A stretch of DNA of 64,000 nt, from positions 124,001-188,000 of the forward strand of contig JAFWNG010000045.1 in assembly GCA_017510405.1 (NCBI GenBank), in the 5' to 3' direction. Shown here in pieces: positions 54 through 7,795 of the stretch (the stretch's first letter is position 1; each line of letters begins with the position of its first letter). Source of the stretch: Solobacterium sp. Lineage in GTDB: Bacteria; Bacillota_I; Bacilli_A; Erysipelotrichales; Erysipelotrichaceae. A program made the translations under genes and the position numbers. The notes beneath the pieces were generated by a model. The model was given only the letters and a program-made list of their open reading frames with translations. It did no database searches and was not told the DNA's origin.

Positions 54-1781
54 TTATTTGTAGAATTCATCCAGATACTTCTGGTGCAGTTCAAGATACT
101 TGCTGAGGCCATAGCTCTCGAGTTTGCTCTGGAGTTCGTTCCACTTAGCCTCTACATCGCCATCTTTAATACCAGTTGCCTTGAACTCATTGATTGCCGT
201 ACGGATATCAGCATTCAGGTTGGAAGCTTCCTTGGTATCTTCTGTCGACATGAATACATTCGGGAATACATACTTTGTATTCATATCCGGTGTGTAGATA
301 TCCTTGATCCAGTCAAGACGATACTGAGCATCATCCGGGCATGTGACATACTTGCCATAGTAGGAGTCGAGGATTGCCAGCGGACCGCCTACACATTCAG
401 CTTCACGTACTTCAACCGGGGACTTGTCGCCCAGCGGAGCGTGCTGCAGCATGTCTTCGCCGTCAGCGTTCTTACCCATTACGAAGATATCGAATCCATC
501 GTCTTCACCGTAAGTACCCCAGTTGTTCTGCGGGGACTGCATCGGATCATACATCTGGTCGAGCCAGGAGCAGATCAGAGCCGGGTTCTTTGCGTTAACT
601 GTAATAACGCAGCGACCACGGTCGAAGCCGGATGTGAAGGAACCGTTCTGCGGAGTGATGTTCTTTGTATCAGCAGCCAGTGCCGGCAGCGGTACCCAGT
701 GCTTGCCATCGATCAGATCCTGCATGTTGACCTGAGCAATGTTTGCAACGTCCCAGGAGAAGCAGACGCCATAACGTCCGGATTTACCCTTAGCAACGTA
801 TGTGGACCATTCCTGTGTGAATGCTTCGGAGTCAATCAGATCTTCTGCATAGAGCTTGTGCAGCCATTCGATACCCTTCTTGAAGCCCTCTGTGTTAGCA
901 ACGCAGATGACCTTCTTGTCGTCTGTAACAGCAATGTGTCTGCCCTTGTCCATGTCGCCGTAGCCTTCGCCGAAGCCGTTGATCAGAACGGACGGATCCT
1001 GGTCGCCGTCATTTACGATGCAGGACATCGGAATGATGCTTCCGTCGATGTTGAATTCTTTCTGCAGAGCAGCTGCGTTGTCGCGGAATGCGATCAGAAC
1101 CTGTTCGAATTCATCAACAGTTCCCGGAAGTTCTGACGTCAGGAAATCGAGTTTTCCCTGACTCTTCAGGAAGTCAATCCAGTCTTTGTTGATGAACGGC
1201 ATGTTGCCGATCGACTGAATAGCTGTCTTTTCATAACCCAGCTGTTCGATCCACGGAAGAGCCCAGATGTGTCCGTCTGCGTCTTCGCACATTGTTCTGT
1301 ATTCCGGAGCCTGTTCGAATACCTTCTTCAGGTTCGGCATATACTTGTCAATGTATTCTTCAACGTTGATGATAACGCCCTGTTTTGCATACTTCAGAAG
1401 ATCTGTGTCGCCGAAGCCTGCGGAGAATACGAATTCCGGAAGTGTCTTGAGGTTGGACATTTCGAGCTGGATCTTATCGCCCCACTGGTCGCCCTGGATC
1501 GTCTTCCACTCAACGTGGACGTTTGTCTTTTCTTCCAGACGCTTGAAGATCGTACGGTTGTTCGGATTGGATTCTGTTCCTACCGGATAGTTTGTCAGAC
1601 CGCTGATCGTTGCCTTTTCCTTGAGAGGCAGTGCAACTTCTGCCGGATCAACATCTGTTCCGCCGGAAGCACCGCCGCCTCCGCCGCCGTTACCGCCGCC
1701 GCAGCCAGCCAGAATGGTTGCAGACATGCTCAGAGAAAGTGCAAATGCTGCGCCCTTTAAGATTTTTTTGCTGAATTTCAT
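54..1781 (-). CDS. CUT1 ABC transporter solute-binding lipoprotein
   Basis: Extracytoplasmic sugar-binding lipoprotein of about 575 aa. The signal peptide ends in a lipobox (LAGC, acylated Cys about residue 27), followed by a glycine-rich linker. Size and motif layout fit the large LplA/YtcQ-type binding proteins that feed CUT1 permeases. The start at 1781 is chosen over an upstream in-frame ATG at 1832 because an AGGAGA site precedes it and because it begins the signal peptide. The two permeases directly upstream (1816-3678) complete the importer. The ligand is unknown; the neighbouring uronate and pectin genes suggest an oligouronide or related oligosaccharide, which is inference. Confidence 0.9.
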   Translation of the reverse strand: MKFSKKILKGAAFALSLSMSATILAGCGGGNGGGGGGASGGTDVDPAEVALPLKEKATISGLTNYPVGTESNPNNRTIFKRLEEKTNVHVEWKTIQGDQWGDKIQLEMSNLKTLPEFVFSAGFGDTDLLKYAKQGVIINVEEYIDKYMPNLKKVFEQAPEYRTMCEDADGHIWALPWIEQLGYEKTAIQSIGNMPFINKDWIDFLKSQGKLDFLTSELPGTVDEFEQVLIAFRDNAAALQKEFNIDGSIIPMSCIVNDGDQDPSVLINGFGEGYGDMDKGRHIAVTDDKKVICVANTEGFKKGIEWLHKLYAEDLIDSEAFTQEWSTYVAKGKSGRYGVCFSWDVANIAQVNMQDLIDGKHWVPLPALAADTKNITPQNGSFTSGFDRGRCVITVNAKNPALICSWLDQMYDPMQSPQNNWGTYGEDDGFDIFVMGKNADGEDMLQHAPLGDKSPVEVREAECVGGPLAILDSYYGKYVTCPDDAQYRLDWIKDIYTPDMNTKYVFPNVFMSTEDTKEASNLNADIRTAINEFKATGIKDGDVEAKWNELQSKLESYGLSKYLELHQKYLDEFYK

Positions 1782-1815
1782 TTCTTTTACTCTCCTGTAA
1801 TTATTCAGTTTTGAA

Positions 1816-2724
1816 TTAGCCCTTGACCGCACCGGCCATGATACCGTTGTCGAAGTATTTCTGGAAGAACGGATACATGATCATAAGCGGGAGGGATGAG
1901 ATAATGATTGTTGCGTACTTCAGAAGTTCTGCGAGCTGTGCACGCTCAGCTGTACTCTGCATATCGGAGACCATGCCGGGTTCCGGCTGGCTCTGAATCA
2001 GGATCGAACGGAGAACGAGCTGCAGAGGCTGCTTGGATGCGCTGTTCAGATAGATCATGGCATCGAAGTAGCTGTTCCACATACCGACGAACTGCCACAT
2101 GGAGATCGTCGCAATGATTGGTGTACATACCGGCAGAAGGATCTGGAAGAAGTAGACCATTTCGTTCGCACCGTCGATTTCTGCAGCTTCCTGCAGGTCA
2201 CGCGGAATACCCATGTAATATGTTCTTGCGATGATCATATTCCATACGCTGAATGCGCCCGGAATCAGGATCGCCCAGATGGTATCCAGCATTCCGAGGT
2301 TCGAGATCAGCAAGTATGTCGGGATAAGACCGCCGCCGAAGAACATCGTGATAACGAAGATGGTATTGAAGAATCCTTTACCTTTAAAATCCGGACGGGA
2401 CATCGGATATGCCGCAAGCAGTGTGACAACGACCGAGATCACCGTGAAGAGAACCGAGTAGATCAGAGCATTCTTGAAACCTACCCAGATCTGTGTGTTG
2501 CCTAATACTCGTTCATAAGCGGTAAGCGTCCATTTGGAGAAGTCAAATGTCAGACCTTTGTTCTGAAGTGTTACCGGATCAATGAACGATGCCAGGATGA
2601 TGTAAACCATCGGCAGAATGATTGCAACGACGAACAGGCCGAGGAGAATGTATCCAATGATAAGAATCGTCTTATCTTCTATCGGATACTTGGAAAATTC
2701 GCTTTTCTTTTTCTTGTTTTCCAT
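1816..2724 (-). CDS. CUT1 ABC permease (LplC/YtcP type)
   Basis: Inner-membrane permease of about 302 aa with six predicted hydrophobic segments. The ATPase-docking EAA loop is visible around residues 179-198 (EAAEIDGA followed by ILLP). It forms a heterodimer with the product of 2737-3678. Two ATGs are adjacent; the one at 2724 sits 6 nt from the GGAGG core, the one at 2727 only 3 nt, so 2724 is preferred. No ATPase lies in this operon; the MsmX-type protein at 6596-7795 on the other strand is the likely energiser. Confidence 0.92.
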   Translation of the reverse strand: MENKKKKSEFSKYPIEDKTILIIGYILLGLFVVAIILPMVYIILASFIDPVTLQNKGLTFDFSKWTLTAYERVLGNTQIWVGFKNALIYSVLFTVISVVVTLLAAYPMSRPDFKGKGFFNTIFVITMFFGGGLIPTYLLISNLGMLDTIWAILIPGAFSVWNMIIARTYYMGIPRDLQEAAEIDGANEMVYFFQILLPVCTPIIATISMWQFVGMWNSYFDAMIYLNSASKQPLQLVLRSILIQSQPEPGMVSDMQSTAERAQLAELLKYATIIISSLPLMIMYPFFQKYFDNGIMAGAVKG

Positions 2725-2736
2725 CATTCACCTCCG

Positions 2737-3678
2737 TCAGATGCCCTTACCTTCATTCATTCTCTGAACGATCTTGTTCATCGAAATCAGCAGGATGACA
2801 TTGATTACCGTGTTGAAGAGACCGACAGCTGTCGAGAAACCATAGTCTCCGTCCAGAAGACCTTTCTTATACACGTATGTCGAAATGATTTCAGATGAAG
2901 AAAGGTTAAGGTCTGTCTGCAGAGCATATGCTTTTTCAAAGCCGATACTCATGATGTTACCGACAGACATGATGAACTGAATCAGTACCGTATCCTTAAT
3001 TGCCGGCCATTCTACTGCCTTGATCTGCTGGATGATGTTCGCACCGTCAATGACTGCAGCTTCTTTCAGTTCCTTGCTGGCGTTGGAAAGCGCAGCAGTG
3101 TAAATGATAGAAGCCCAGCCTGCACCCTGCCAGATTCCCGATGCGATGTAGATCGTACGGAAAGCCGACGGCATTGTCATGAAGTTCGTCTGTGTTCCGA
3201 ACAGGGAATTGATCATTCCGGTCGGAGAAAGAAGAATTCTGACGATACCGCAGAGGACGATGACCGAAATGAAGTTCGGCATGTACAGAACAAGCTGTAT
3301 CCTCTGCTTTGTTTTGGTGCTGAGAATGCGATTCAGCAGGAATGCGAGCAGAATCGGGATAGGGAATCCCCAGAGAAGTCCGAACACACTCAGTTTAAGA
3401 GTGTTCATCAGATATCTCATGAAGTCCGGCGAAGAAAGGAATCTGGCAAAGTGGTCCATACCGACCCATTCACTTCCGAGAATACCCCTGATCGGGTTGT
3501 ATTCCATAAATGCGATCAGAATACCTCCCATCGGAATGTAGCGGAAAATGATAGTCAGCAGGAACGCCGGAAGGATAAAGAGCACGTACAGCTGCCAGTG
3601 CTGCTTCATGTAAACGAGCAGATTGTGCAGCTTTGAGCTTTCAGAGACGGAAGCCGTGTTCCCTGATGCTTTTCCCAT
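2737..3678 (-). CDS. CUT1 ABC permease (LplB type)
   Basis: Membrane permease of 313 aa, first gene of the operon. Hydrophobic segments start near residue 30 after a short basic N-terminus. The EAA motif lies around residues 206-226 (KEAAVIDGA then WPAI). An AGGAGGAATT ribosome site precedes the ATG. It partners the 1816-2724 permease, 12 nt downstream, and the lipoprotein at 54-1781. A promoter and a candidate operator for this operon lie at 3785-3835. Confidence 0.92.
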   Translation of the reverse strand: MGKASGNTASVSESSKLHNLLVYMKQHWQLYVLFILPAFLLTIIFRYIPMGGILIAFMEYNPIRGILGSEWVGMDHFARFLSSPDFMRYLMNTLKLSVFGLLWGFPIPILLAFLLNRILSTKTKQRIQLVLYMPNFISVIVLCGIVRILLSPTGMINSLFGTQTNFMTMPSAFRTIYIASGIWQGAGWASIIYTAALSNASKELKEAAVIDGANIIQQIKAVEWPAIKDTVLIQFIMSVGNIMSIGFEKAYALQTDLNLSSSEIISTYVYKKGLLDGDYGFSTAVGLFNTVINVILLISMNKIVQRMNEGKGI

Positions 3679-3961: not shown

Positions 3962-3967
3962 TATAAT
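3962..3967 (+). promoter_or_regulatory. -10 box TATAAT for the LacI gene
   Basis: A consensus TATAAT covers the ATG at 3966 that could open a longer LacI reading frame. The box makes transcription from about 3974 likely, so translation should begin at 4017. No convincing -35 is seen. Confidence 0.5.
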
Positions 3968-4016
3968 GACTATAAGTGAATTGCCGGACAGCAGAACGGC
4001 GAATGAGGATCCGCAA

Positions 4017-5066
4017 ATGACAAAAAAAGTGACCATCCAGGACATCGCCGATGCCCTCGGCATATCCCGAAATACCGTATCAAAAGCAATCAACAACTCC
4101 GAAGGCATTGCGGACAGTACGAGAGAAAAGATTATCCAGAAAGCTGTGGAAATGGGGTACAAACAGTTTTCTTATGTTGCATCTATCATGAATATCGTGC
4201 AGGAAAAGGAAGAAGTTGAGGTCGAACCGGAATTCGCCGGTGAGATCGCCCTGCTGACCGGCATGTATATTCCGAACAACCATTTCGGATCTCTGATGAT
4301 GGACAAATTCCACCAGGAAATCTCCCAGATGGGATATACCCTTACGATCCACCGTGTTACCGATGAAAATGTCCGTTCCCTGACCTTTCCGAAGACATTT
4401 AATCCGGAGCGGGTCAGCGGCGTGCTGTGCATGGAAGTATTTGACTATGAGTACAGCAAGATGATCTGCGAATGCGGCATCCCGCTGCTGTTCGTGGACG
4501 GGCCGGCAAAGGCAGGCGGAAGAATTCTGCCGTGCGATATGCTTCTGATGGACAGCATCTCGCCGATCACGGATTTCACATTCAAAATGATCGAGCGCGG
4601 GCTCATGAAGATCGGTTTCATCGGGGATTACAAGCACTGCCAGTCTTTCTATGAACGCTACAGTGCGTATATACTGGCCATGACATATGCCGGCCTTAAA
4701 GTCGACAAACGATTCCTCATCCCGATCGCTGACGGTGACATCAGCGGCCTTGCGGATTATATCGAAAACATGGATGAAATGCCGGATATATTCATCTGTG
4801 CCAACGATTTCGTCGCAATCGACGCGATGCAGATCCTGTATCAGAAAGACCGGAAACTCAGGAAACAGGTACGGTTCCTCGGTTTCGATGATACACACGA
4901 ATCCCGCATCTTCTACCCTTCCCTTTCTACAGTACATATCCACTCACAGACTATGGCATACTCTGCCGTGCAGCTTCTTATGTCCCGTATGAAAGAGCCA
5001 TCTCTGGAAAGCAGAGTCGTACATGTGGAGACTGACCTTGTTCTGAGGGACTCTACAGAATTCTGA
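4017..5066 (+). CDS. LacI-family transcriptional regulator
   Basis: DNA-binding sugar regulator of about 349 aa. The N-terminal LacI helix-turn-helix is clear (residues 1-55, IQDIADALGISRNTVSKAIN), followed by a periplasmic-binding-like effector domain. The start at 4017 has a GAGG site 8 nt upstream; an in-frame ATG at 3966 is rejected because it lies inside the -10 box. It is divergent from the CUT1 transporter and is probably its local regulator. The next gene, for a YesL-type protein, follows 12 nt later in the same transcript. Confidence 0.92.
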   Translation: MTKKVTIQDIADALGISRNTVSKAINNSEGIADSTREKIIQKAVEMGYKQFSYVASIMNIVQEKEEVEVEPEFAGEIALLTGMYIPNNHFGSLMMDKFHQEISQMGYTLTIHRVTDENVRSLTFPKTFNPERVSGVLCMEVFDYEYSKMICECGIPLLFVDGPAKAGGRILPCDMLLMDSISPITDFTFKMIERGLMKIGFIGDYKHCQSFYERYSAYILAMTYAGLKVDKRFLIPIADGDISGLADYIENMDEMPDIFICANDFVAIDAMQILYQKDRKLRKQVRFLGFDDTHESRIFYPSLSTVHIHSQTMAYSAVQLLMSRMKEPSLESRVVHVETDLVLRDSTEF

Positions 5067-5078
5067 TACGGAGGCGTT

Positions 5079-5729
5079 ATGAACTTTTTCTCCTATGAGA
5101 GCAGATTCAGCCAGGTACTTCTGAAGATATGCTTCGGCTGCTGGCTGAATGTGCTGTGGGTACTTTGCAGCATCCCGGTATTTACGATCGGGGCTTCCAC
5201 GACCGCGCTGTATGACGTCACTCTGCGCATCGCGGAAGAAAGAGAAGAGAACGTTACTAAGCAGTTTTTCACAGCATTTAAGAATAACTTTGCCCAGGCA
5301 ACGCGCCTGTGGCTGATCCTGCTCGCTGTCGGCGCGCTGCTCGCAGCAGACGGTTATGTCGTATCCCATCTTCGTTCCACCACTCTGGGAATGCCGGCTG
5401 TCTTCTGGACGCTGAATCTGGCGCTGCTCATTGCGGCCGCCGTGGTATATGTGATCGTTCTTCTGAACATTTTCCCGCTCACAGCCCGCTTCGCCAATAC
5501 GGACTGGGCTATGCTGAAGAACAGTTTCTTTGTCGGGATCCGGTATCTGTTCAATACCATCCTTATGTTTGCGATCCACTTTGTCATGTTTTATGCCATT
5601 GTTATGATATTCACACCGCTGGTCATATTCGGAGAAGGACTTACTGCAGTGATCTGCTCGAATTTCCTCACCTATGTGCTCGGCTCGCTGAATTCTGAAG
5701 ATCAGGACAATAGCCGCGGAGAATCCTGA
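5079..5729 (+). CDS. yesL: YesL/DUF624 family membrane protein
   Basis: Integral membrane protein of 216 aa with about five hydrophobic segments. The N-terminal pattern (FFSYESRFSQVLLKI, then NVLWVLCSIPVFTIGAST) is typical of YesL/DUF624. The family is commonly encoded beside CUT1 transporters and LacI or AraC regulators in Bacillota; its molecular role is not established. A GGAGG site precedes the ATG. Its stop overlaps the start of the next gene (TGATG), so the two are probably translationally coupled and may work as a pair. Confidence 0.85.
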   Translation: MNFFSYESRFSQVLLKICFGCWLNVLWVLCSIPVFTIGASTTALYDVTLRIAEEREENVTKQFFTAFKNNFAQATRLWLILLAVGALLAADGYVVSHLRSTTLGMPAVFWTLNLALLIAAAVVYVIVLLNIFPLTARFANTDWAMLKNSFFVGIRYLFNTILMFAIHFVMFYAIVMIFTPLVIFGEGLTAVICSNFLTYVLGSLNSEDQDNSRGES

Positions 5730-6466
5730 TGAGAAGAACAAGGAAAGAACGGGAAGCTGAAAAACGCGCTTTCCGCAACATGAGCAAGGCAGAGAAGATC
5801 GACCATATCTACACTTATTACAAGCTGCCGATATTCACCGTATGCGTGATACTGGCGATCCTTCTTCAGGCAGGGATTCGTGCCCTGACGAAGAAAGATA
5901 CCGTTCTGTATCTCGCATATGCTAACGTCTCTTTCGGAGATACTCTTCACGAAGAGCTCACCGGCGGATACATGAGTTACTCGGGAACCGATGTGAAAAA
6001 GAATGAATTTATAGAGTTCCCGGACCTGTATCTGTCTGATGACGCCTCTGCGGAAAACCATCAGTACGCATACGCATCCAAAATCAAAGTGCTTGGTGCG
6101 ATCAGCGCCAGGCAGATGGACGTCGTCTTCCTGAATAAGGAAGCTTATGATCTGATGTCCACAAGCGGATTTCTGATGGAATTGAAGGGTATTAAAGGAT
6201 TAGACGCGCTCTTGTACCAGCGGATGGAACCCTACATTACCGAGAACACCGTAATTATCGAAGACAACTCCGTCGATTACGATCTCGGCAAGGCAAGCGA
6301 GTACCATGCCGTTACGGAAGAACATACAAATGCATTGAATGTTTCTTCCTTCCCCATGTTCCGCCGCGCTGTCATGGACGATGACGTCTATGTCGCGGTC
6401 ATTGCGAACAGTCCCCGCCTTCCCGCGGTACTCTCCTATCTGGAGTACCTGCTGAGCGCTGACTGA
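5729..6466 (+). CDS. unknown single-pass membrane-anchored protein
   Basis: Not recognised. The 245-aa product has a basic N-terminus (residues 1-32), one hydrophobic segment at about 34-52, then a roughly 190-residue hydrophilic domain, probably outside the cell by the positive-inside rule. The soluble part contains no motif I can name. The start overlaps the yesL stop by one base. Position between yesL and the MsmX ATPase gene suggests an accessory role in sugar uptake; this is inference. Confidence 0.7.
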   Translation: MRRTRKEREAEKRAFRNMSKAEKIDHIYTYYKLPIFTVCVILAILLQAGIRALTKKDTVLYLAYANVSFGDTLHEELTGGYMSYSGTDVKKNEFIEFPDLYLSDDASAENHQYAYASKIKVLGAISARQMDVVFLNKEAYDLMSTSGFLMELKGIKGLDALLYQRMEPYITENTVIIEDNSVDYDLGKASEYHAVTEEHTNALNVSSFPMFRRAVMDDDVYVAVIANSPRLPAVLSYLEYLLSAD

Positions 6467-6595
6467 CGCAGCAGTCTCCCGTATGCGGACTGCCGTTGAA
6501 ACGGTGAAAATCCGTGCCAGTAAGCCAGGCCTTTTCGATACTACACGGCCGCAGGCTTCATAATTCTTTCAAAAAGCAGAAAGGGGCAAAAAACT
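6467..6595 (+). ncRNA. candidate structured leader RNA upstream of the ATPase gene
   Basis: The 129-nt gap has several pairings: GCAGTC/GACTGC (6471-6476 with 6488-6493); two mutually exclusive hairpins sharing ACGG at 6501-6504 (with CCGT at 6493-6496, or with CCGT at 6512-6515); and AAGCC/GGCTT (6522-6526 with 6554-6558). The hairpin loop TGAAAAT closed by CGG/CCG resembles the conserved P4 loop of cobalamin riboswitches, and AAGCCAGG at 6522-6529 resembles the start of a B12 box. Other core elements of that riboswitch are missing, so the class is uncertain. Confidence 0.4.
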
Positions 6596-7795
6596 ATGGC
6601 AACAGTATCACTTAGACACATCCAGAAGATCTACCCGAACACGGAACCGCAGGCAAAGAAGAAAAAAAATAAGAAGGAAGAAAAGCCGGTTGAGGAAAAG
6701 ACCTACAAACTGAAGATCACAGACGAAGGTGTTGTAGCCGTTGATGACTTCAACCTGGATATCGCCGACAAAGAATTCATCGTTCTTGTCGGACCTTCCG
6801 GATGCGGAAAATCCACAACTCTGCGTATGGTCGCCGGTCTTGAAGAGATCACAAGAGGCGAACTCTACATCGATGACAGACTCGTCAACGACGTAGCTCC
6901 GAAGGACAGAGACATCGCGATGGTATTCCAGAACTATGCTCTGTATCCGCACATGACTGTACGTCAGAACCTTGAATTCCCGCTGAAGCTGAGAAAAGTT
7001 CCGAAGGCTGAGATCGATCAGAGAGTCAATGAGGCTGCTGAGATCCTCGGCATCATCCAGTATCTTGAGCGTAAGCCAAAAGCTCTGTCCGGTGGTCAGA
7101 GACAGCGTGTCGCGATCGGTCGTGCGATCGTTCGTGAACCGAAGGTACTGCTGATGGACGAACCGCTCTCCAACCTGGACGCCAAGCTGCGTAACCAGAT
7201 GAGAGCAGAGATCATCAAACTGAGAAAACGTATCAACACGACATTCATCTATGTCACACATGACCAGACCGAAGCTATGACACTGGGCGACAGAATCGTC
7301 ATCATGAAAGACGGTGAAGTTCAGCAGATCGGTACTCCGCAGGAAGTCTTCAATGATCCGGTCAACACATTCGTTGCTGGATTCATCGGCATGCCGCGTA
7401 TGAACATGTTCGGCGGCAGACTGGTAAAAGAAAACGGCGAGTATGTTGCAAAGATCATGGATGCGACGATCAAGATCTCTGCAGACAAGCAGAAGAACCT
7501 GGCAGATCATAACATCGGTGAAAGAGATGTCATCTTCGGCGCAAGACCGGAGCACATCACACTGGATCATGTTGACGGCGCAATGATCAACGGTATCGTA
7601 GAAGTCAGCGAAATGATGGGTTCCTCCGTACATCTGCACCTCAACTCCATGGGAAGAGACTGCATCATCATCGTTCCGACACTGGATCTGAAGGACAACG
7701 CAGCTCTCGAGAACGGCGCAAATGTTGAATTCACATTAGTACCGAACGCAATCCACATCTTCGATCCGGAAACGGGTAAGAACCTCGAATTCTGA
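6596..7795 (+). CDS. ugpC: MsmX/UgpC-type sugar ABC ATPase with a lysine-rich insertion
   Basis: Cytoplasmic ATPase of 399 aa that energises CUT1 importers. Walker [10 protein letters not shown] is at 66-74, Q-loop Q112, signature LSGGQ 164-168, Walker B VLLMDE 184-189, and the switch histidine about 222. A regulatory C-terminal domain follows. Compared with the two paralogues in this window, Walker A is displaced by 29 residues through a charged Lys/Glu-rich insertion at about 17-44. It most likely serves the CUT1 permeases at 1816-3678. An AAAGGGG ribosome site precedes the ATG and a strong terminator follows. Confidence 0.93.

Follow-up and report, generated by a model that had tools for sequence, protein, structure and literature searches.

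A conserved three-way-junction leader RNA as a candidate translational regulator of MsmX-type sugar-importer ATPase genes in one bacterial genus

Several sugar importers draw their power from a single ABC ATPase such as MsmX, whose level is for this reason a hub of carbon uptake. How is the amount of such an ATPase set? We address this question at an msmX-type locus in a 64,000-nt stretch of DNA (the window), which is part of a contig of a 3.27-Mb genome. At this locus 129 nt separate the ATPase gene from the preceding gene, which encodes a 245-aa protein, and an earlier reading of the DNA made without database searches (the sequence-only reading) had placed in this gap a structured leader RNA, perhaps a variant cobalamin riboswitch or a new class of RNA in control of a shared sugar ATPase. 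Comparison with relatives supports the leader itself, and indicates that it is a conserved, structured RNA in one genus, in which a three-way junction adjoins the start codon of the ATPase gene, its junction letters conserved and its helices exchangeable. The features of the locus are as follows.

6596–7795, plus strand: the putatively regulated gene, encoding an MsmX/UgpC-type ABC ATPase of 399 aa (PF00005, OB_MalK and TOBE_2; NF008653, UgpC, above cut-off)
6471–6493, plus strand: further 5′ hairpin, GCAGUC...GACUGC (in the MFE; compensated in the closest relative, L082, as GCGGUC/GACCGC)
6501–6515, plus strand: P0, a 5′ add-on hairpin, ACGG-UGAAAAU-CCGU (strict pattern in 26 of 44 homologues; lacking from the shortest members)
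6516–6587, plus strand: three-way junction core P1-P2-P3 (covariation; de novo RNAalifold; 75.8-bit match to model R1, the window being one of the 23 sequences from which R1 was built)
6516–6518, plus strand: P1 5′ strand GCC, with its partner GGC at 6585–6587 (both sides invariant in 44 of 44 homologues; paired in the window's MFE)
6519–6522, plus strand: J12, AGUA, consensus AGWA (AG and final A in 44 of 44 homologues, partly by construction)
6523–6557, plus strand: P2 arm, AGCC 6523–6526 with GGCU 6554–6557 and inner pairs (double changes in 8 of 9 pairs)
6558–6564, plus strand: J23, UCAUAAU, consensus UCA(U/G/A)AAU (44 of 44 homologues, partly by construction)
6565–6584, plus strand: P3 hairpin, UCUUUC...GAAAGG (other sequence in lineages L124, L152, L158, L162 and L157/L159)
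6579–6586, plus strand: putative Shine-Dalgarno (SD) sequence GAAAGGGG, within P3/P1 (from sequence)

The homologues share the formula GCC–AGWA–P2–UCANAAU–P3–GGC, in which P3 joins the 3′ strand of P1 directly, with no letters between; in the window the end of GGC lies 8 nt from the AUG. Core length ranges from 44 to 137 nt and P2 varies strongly in size, from a hairpin of 4–5 bp to an arm exceeding 80 nt; the third letter of J12 is U in 31 of the 44 homologues, A in 11 and C in 2. Many of the 44 leaders were chosen by a junction-letter pattern, or by a model built from leaders so chosen, and because these demanded the junction letters, the counts of 44 of 44 for them arise partly by construction. 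BLAST, which was not told these letters, found 14 complete copies (L082–L092 and L094–L096), all 14 of which nonetheless carry them; L093, which is cut by a contig end, was left out of the count. Eight long leaders (L145, L133, L134, L137, L142, L129, L140 and L127) have an extra conserved domain inside P2, GCAGCUGGGUGAAACCG ... GGGUUCAUCGACGCGG, and another 5′ hairpin around GAGCCAUGAAAGCGCUG.

The case for the fold is covariation, not stability. In a 45-sequence alignment, which was fitted to the structure, 96.8% of 773 cells were paired (85.7% when shuffled), double changes occurred in 11 of 18 pairs (4.7 when shuffled) and the covariation score was 0.306 (0.119 when shuffled), with none of the three measures reached in any of 500 shuffles. 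Related sequences may exceed such shuffles even without a structure, a caveat answered in part by slid controls of the same alignment, the score of which was at most 0.100. An alignment of 23 sequences made with MAFFT (A1), which was not fitted to the structure, gave 97.1% paired, 7 pairs with double changes and a score of 0.192 against 0.093 when shuffled (reached in 0 of 500 shuffles; further pair types in 2 of 500), a signal that lies entirely in P2 because P1 and P3 are invariant in A1. Unprompted, RNAalifold recovers this junction both from A1 and from the eight long leaders. Compensatory changes rebuild P2 across the homologues, and P3 too in several lineages: the 5′ strand of P2 reads AAGUCGG, AAGCAG, AAGUAG or GACCA in relatives, each with a matching 3′ strand. 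Since GCC and GGC are invariant in the 44 homologues, covariation does not prove the pairing of P1, and what speaks for this putative helix is its conservation; the single odd P1 cell of the 45-sequence alignment is a misaligned L149. The MFE includes P1 for 12 of 44 leaders, compared with 139 of 880 interior-shuffled controls. Pairing probability exceeds 0.5 for P2 in 37 of 44 leaders and for P3 in 34 of 44, so some leaders, e.g. L109 and L116, are predicted to fold otherwise. The folding energy of the window's leader is unremarkable (z −0.68; 48 of 200 shuffles are equally stable).

These comparisons change how the 5′ part of the leader is to be understood. Two resemblances noticed by eye, the loop TGAAAAT and the string AAGCCAGG, had been likened to the P4 hairpin and the B12 box of a cobalamin riboswitch (RF00174 and relatives). 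The string is indeed present at 6522–6529, but it supplies the 5′ strand of the covarying helix P2 (AAGCC/GGCUU) and is not unpaired, and the TGAAAAT hairpin is P0, which is dispensable (a looser count finds hairpins of its type in 32 of 44 homologues but includes unlike ones). The fold differs from that of the cobalamin riboswitch, and comparison with the Rfam covariance models returned no cobalamin family at gathering score in the window or up to E = 10 over 6400–6660. We therefore rejected the cobalamin reading, to which we give virtually no credence, on the Rfam scans, the covariation of P2 and the dispensability of the hairpin. ACGG at 6501–6504 had also been proposed as a strand shared by two mutually exclusive hairpins. 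Both pairings are possible in the window, with CCGT at 6512–6515 (enclosing the loop TGAAAAT, 6505–6511) or with CCGT at 6493–6496; as a general mechanism this switch was discarded, as the alternative CCGU/ACGG hairpin is found in 4 of 44 homologues and is missing from the commonest form, GGCUGUAACGG. When the 5′ part was folded alone, the GCC of P1 paired with upstream letters in 22 of 44 homologues, such that in half of them competition for this strand is possible according to the folding model. We did not adopt as a switch a competition in which a GGC of the 5′ part pairs with the GCC of P1, because the window has no upstream GGC.

Where does the element occur? We searched 60 genomes by BLAST with 6470–6595 as query: that of the window, 35 others from its genus and 24 from the order. 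Identity was 85% over 122 nt in G004 and 76–82% at 11 further places (E 3.9e-20 to 6.1e-10), with the conserved part beginning at about 6497; at E ≤ 10 a match was returned in 59 of the 60 genomes, most such matches being short and no better than chance. Among 70 upstream regions of MsmX relatives in the genus, 38 carry the element (36 by core pattern, together with L157 and L159, in which the start codon is mis-set and the element lies further down), five carry malK-I RNA and 27 carry neither. R1 matches 35 of 98 sources at E below 0.01, counting the training sequences and three duplicates, and none of 40 further MsmX loci at E ≤ 5. Across 70 genomes of the genus R1 finds 44 places in 38 genomes at E ≤ 1, of which 41 directly precede an msmX start; of the others, G014 is cut by a contig end, G002:C15 is a chance match on inspection by eye and G063:C18 (E 0.84) is outside the inspected set. 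There is one place in the window's own genome, and one each in 32 of the 38 genomes with a match. Reading of upstream regions adds G092, G093 and G035, so that at least 41 of the 70 genomes carry the element.

Beyond the genus the searches returned little. In 315 genomes of the order, weak R1 matches outside the genus occur in four genomes (G105, G134, G162 and G291; E 0.016–0.42), all of which we judged by eye to be chance. The 40 regions read upstream of MsmX relatives in other genera lack the element, and several of these regions look malK-I-like by eye. A gapped-pattern scan of 395 genomes of the class found G035 only, a weak negative because the gap limits of the pattern exclude the window itself, and a scan of 324 genomes of the phylum found only the window's genome at E ≤ 0.01, a search that is weak for short copies because its first step scores few candidates and passed over G035. 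As this first step misses the shortest members, short copies elsewhere are possible; with that reservation, the order, class and phylum scans showed apparently no true copy outside the genus. One of four unrelated loci (L097–L100), L100, matches a loose letter pattern before an unrelated gene, but R1 finds no whole core there.

Three genes lie ahead of msmX at 3966–6466 of the window and perhaps form one operon with it. They encode a LacI regulator, a membrane protein resembling DUF624/MusI (at a score under the NCBIfam cut-off) and the 245-aa protein, for which domain and NCBIfam searches returned no family match. At nearly all loci of the window type the gene preceding the leader ends like that for the 245-aa protein, so the neighborhood is conserved. 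In L120, L152 and L206 the core instead follows a permease gene, and in L146 a lacI-like gene (C-termini, by eye), and in these four the 5′ hairpin is gone. The eight long leaders have an invariant TATAAT shortly upstream, which makes it probable that the RNA there is a 5′ UTR transcribed from a promoter of its own. We found no promoter-like site ahead of the window's leader, the sole such site lying inside the core (about the chance number), and no terminator-like sites in 6200–6620. At 54–3678, on the minus strand, are genes for a sugar-type binding protein and two permease-like proteins (from translations, by eye) with no adjoining ATPase gene, as is expected if MsmX is shared. In a protein tree the element-bearing ATPases cluster, the element label needing 2 changes compared with a shuffled mean of 28; malK-I is carried by the group that branches next outside them. 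A crude reading-frame search showed that 25 of the 27 paralogues lacking both RNAs start no more than 18 nt after the preceding gene; the element thus goes with copies that leave space for a leader.

Searches of Rfam 15 support the proposal of a new RNA class ahead of a shared sugar ATPase, as do the covariation, the junction letters and the position before msmX. No family matches the element, either in the window at gathering score or in 6400–6660 up to E = 10, where the sole match was CyVA-1 on the minus strand (E 1.9, below threshold). Nor does any match it in relatives at gathering score, or in 14 relatives up to E = 5, where there were three sub-threshold matches (RsaD, rnk_pseudo and RsmY, that to RsaD, in L145, lying outside the core). 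A search of open-licence PMC papers found no description of the element. Two catalogued RNAs resemble it in role. msiK RNA (RF01747) likewise leads a multi-sugar ABC ATPase gene and has a predicted ribosome-binding site in the 3′ side of its basal stem, but it is a single bulged hairpin with an 11-nt bulge, AACGGAUCGUC, and no P2 arm (consensus read from two true matches, L259 and L260). In the present element an SD within the 3′ strand of the basal stem is found, by sequence and predicted pairing, in the window type only, the SD of the short types lying just 3′ of P1. The source on msiK describes it in Actinobacteria and suggests feedback by the ATPase (PMC2864571). The msiK model matches L259 and L260 but neither the window nor its relatives.

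malK-I RNA (RF03069), like the element, precedes MalK/MsmX-type ATPase genes, in its case of Firmicutes, and reaches the AUG; it is reportedly described in a 2017 paper. It is about 181 nt long, with a closing stem, three inner hairpins and CUCCAC/GUGGAG strings, and its covariance model does not match the element while matching malK-I loci in the same kind of scan. Within the genus malK-I is found in 10 of 70 genomes, in 9 of 10 places directly ahead of a listed ATPase gene. The malK-II and malK-III RNAs are presumably leaders of the same kind of gene; if present in Rfam 15, they were not reported in the scans of the window and 14 relatives. The element appears, on this sequence comparison, to be a new, narrow family of a known kind, that of ATPase leaders.

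What might such a leader do? On balance, we consider it likely that the element is an undescribed cis-acting RNA family that sets the translation of the shared sugar-importer ATPase, and the leader RNA probably sets the amount of ATPase made. Because the SD of the window type lies inside P3/P1, translational control is the likeliest mode, and it is favored over control of termination by the lack of a following terminator and by the presence of the core between operon genes as well. The window's GAAAGGGG is its only SD candidate and has a predicted unpaired probability of 0.17; in 29 of 30 leaders with this sequence the value is 0.05–0.44, and in L088 it is 0.77, although the pairing is not via P3 in every leader. 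A junction folded and held by a partner would, in the window type, let P3 and P1 bury the SD and thereby lower initiation, and release of the junction would allow the gene to be translated. Simple burial does not cover all members, as the SD of the short types, AAGGAG, begins 0–3 nt after P1, outside P1 and P3, and is predicted to be open (0.94 in L152 and 0.85 in L162). In these, P3/P1 would lie 0–3 nt from the SD and initiation may fall when the junction is held.

By analogy with the proposal for msiK, the partner may be the ATPase itself or its idle form, acting in feedback, a suggestion that we make tentatively and as a weak one; a small sugar-linked metabolite would be nearly as likely. 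The fuller version of the former, in which the idle MalK/MsmX-family ATPase, not engaged by importers, binds the three-way-junction leader of its own mRNA and shuts off translation as a new feedback RNA class, we regard as speculative and rather unlikely. Were it true, the same feedback on a single hub ATPase would have evolved repeatedly through unrelated RNAs, msiK and malK-I among them. A riboswitch of a new class for a sugar, sugar phosphate or energy/carbon signal, whose bound ligand blocks msmX translation, is doubtful to a similar degree. A compact junction whose unpaired letters are conserved, placed where translation begins, has the look of a translational riboswitch, the gene serves sugar import and, as in riboswitches generally, a conserved covarying fold lies ahead of a gene. 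Riboswitches for metabolites, however, often act on several genes of one pathway, whereas this element precedes one type of gene and mostly occurs once per genome.

It is improbable that the leader is instead a site for another RNA-binding protein or a small RNA, or serves in processing or stability: the operon position and the variable 5′ part would fit, but a three-way junction across the translation start seems, in our judgement, more than is needed. Smaller still is the chance that the element is a diverged member of malK-I or msiK, despite the same gene and role, the malK-I copies before sister ATPases of the genus and an msiK layout that is alike in having an 11-nt bulge on the 5′ side and an unbroken 3′ strand with the SD, compared with 4 + 7 junction letters here. 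Neither family matched up to E = 10 in 6400–6660 or up to E = 5 in 14 relatives, the junction letters differ, and the malK-I loci among the sources searched with R1 were not matched by it.

Returning to the reading of the element as a translational leader of its own family, such ATPase genes are preceded by three leader RNAs, msiK, malK-I and the present element, among which no relation was detected. Two of them, malK-I and the present element, precede different paralogues within one genus, side by side in 7 of the 10 genomes with malK-I. Three such leaders, two of them in one genus, argue for a common signal. The smallest natural cores are 44–46 nt, a size that makes probing, binding screens and structure work easy.

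Further observations concern the ATPase and related loci. The window's ATPase has a Lys-rich insert after the YPN motif, at residues about 16–36, which is longest in window-type carriers and shorter in other carriers. As a marker of the element it was set aside as not specific, since it occurs in paralogues without the element: 11 of 16 malK-I carriers examined have it, as do element-free paralogues of the genus, and it is absent from most examined MsmX proteins of other families. It is conceivable that the insert is an RNA-binding patch. In L206 (G026:C39:59500-65200) msmX is interrupted after about 66 codons with the leader intact, and the rest of its sequence follows after about 3.4 kb. In a sister genus, g33 (L212, L213, L215, L216, L217 and L219), a different conserved leader, GAUAC...GGGGGAGUAUC or similar, occupies the last ~40 nt before the ATG of the ATPase gene (by eye); in this second candidate element the SD appears to fall within a hairpin loop.
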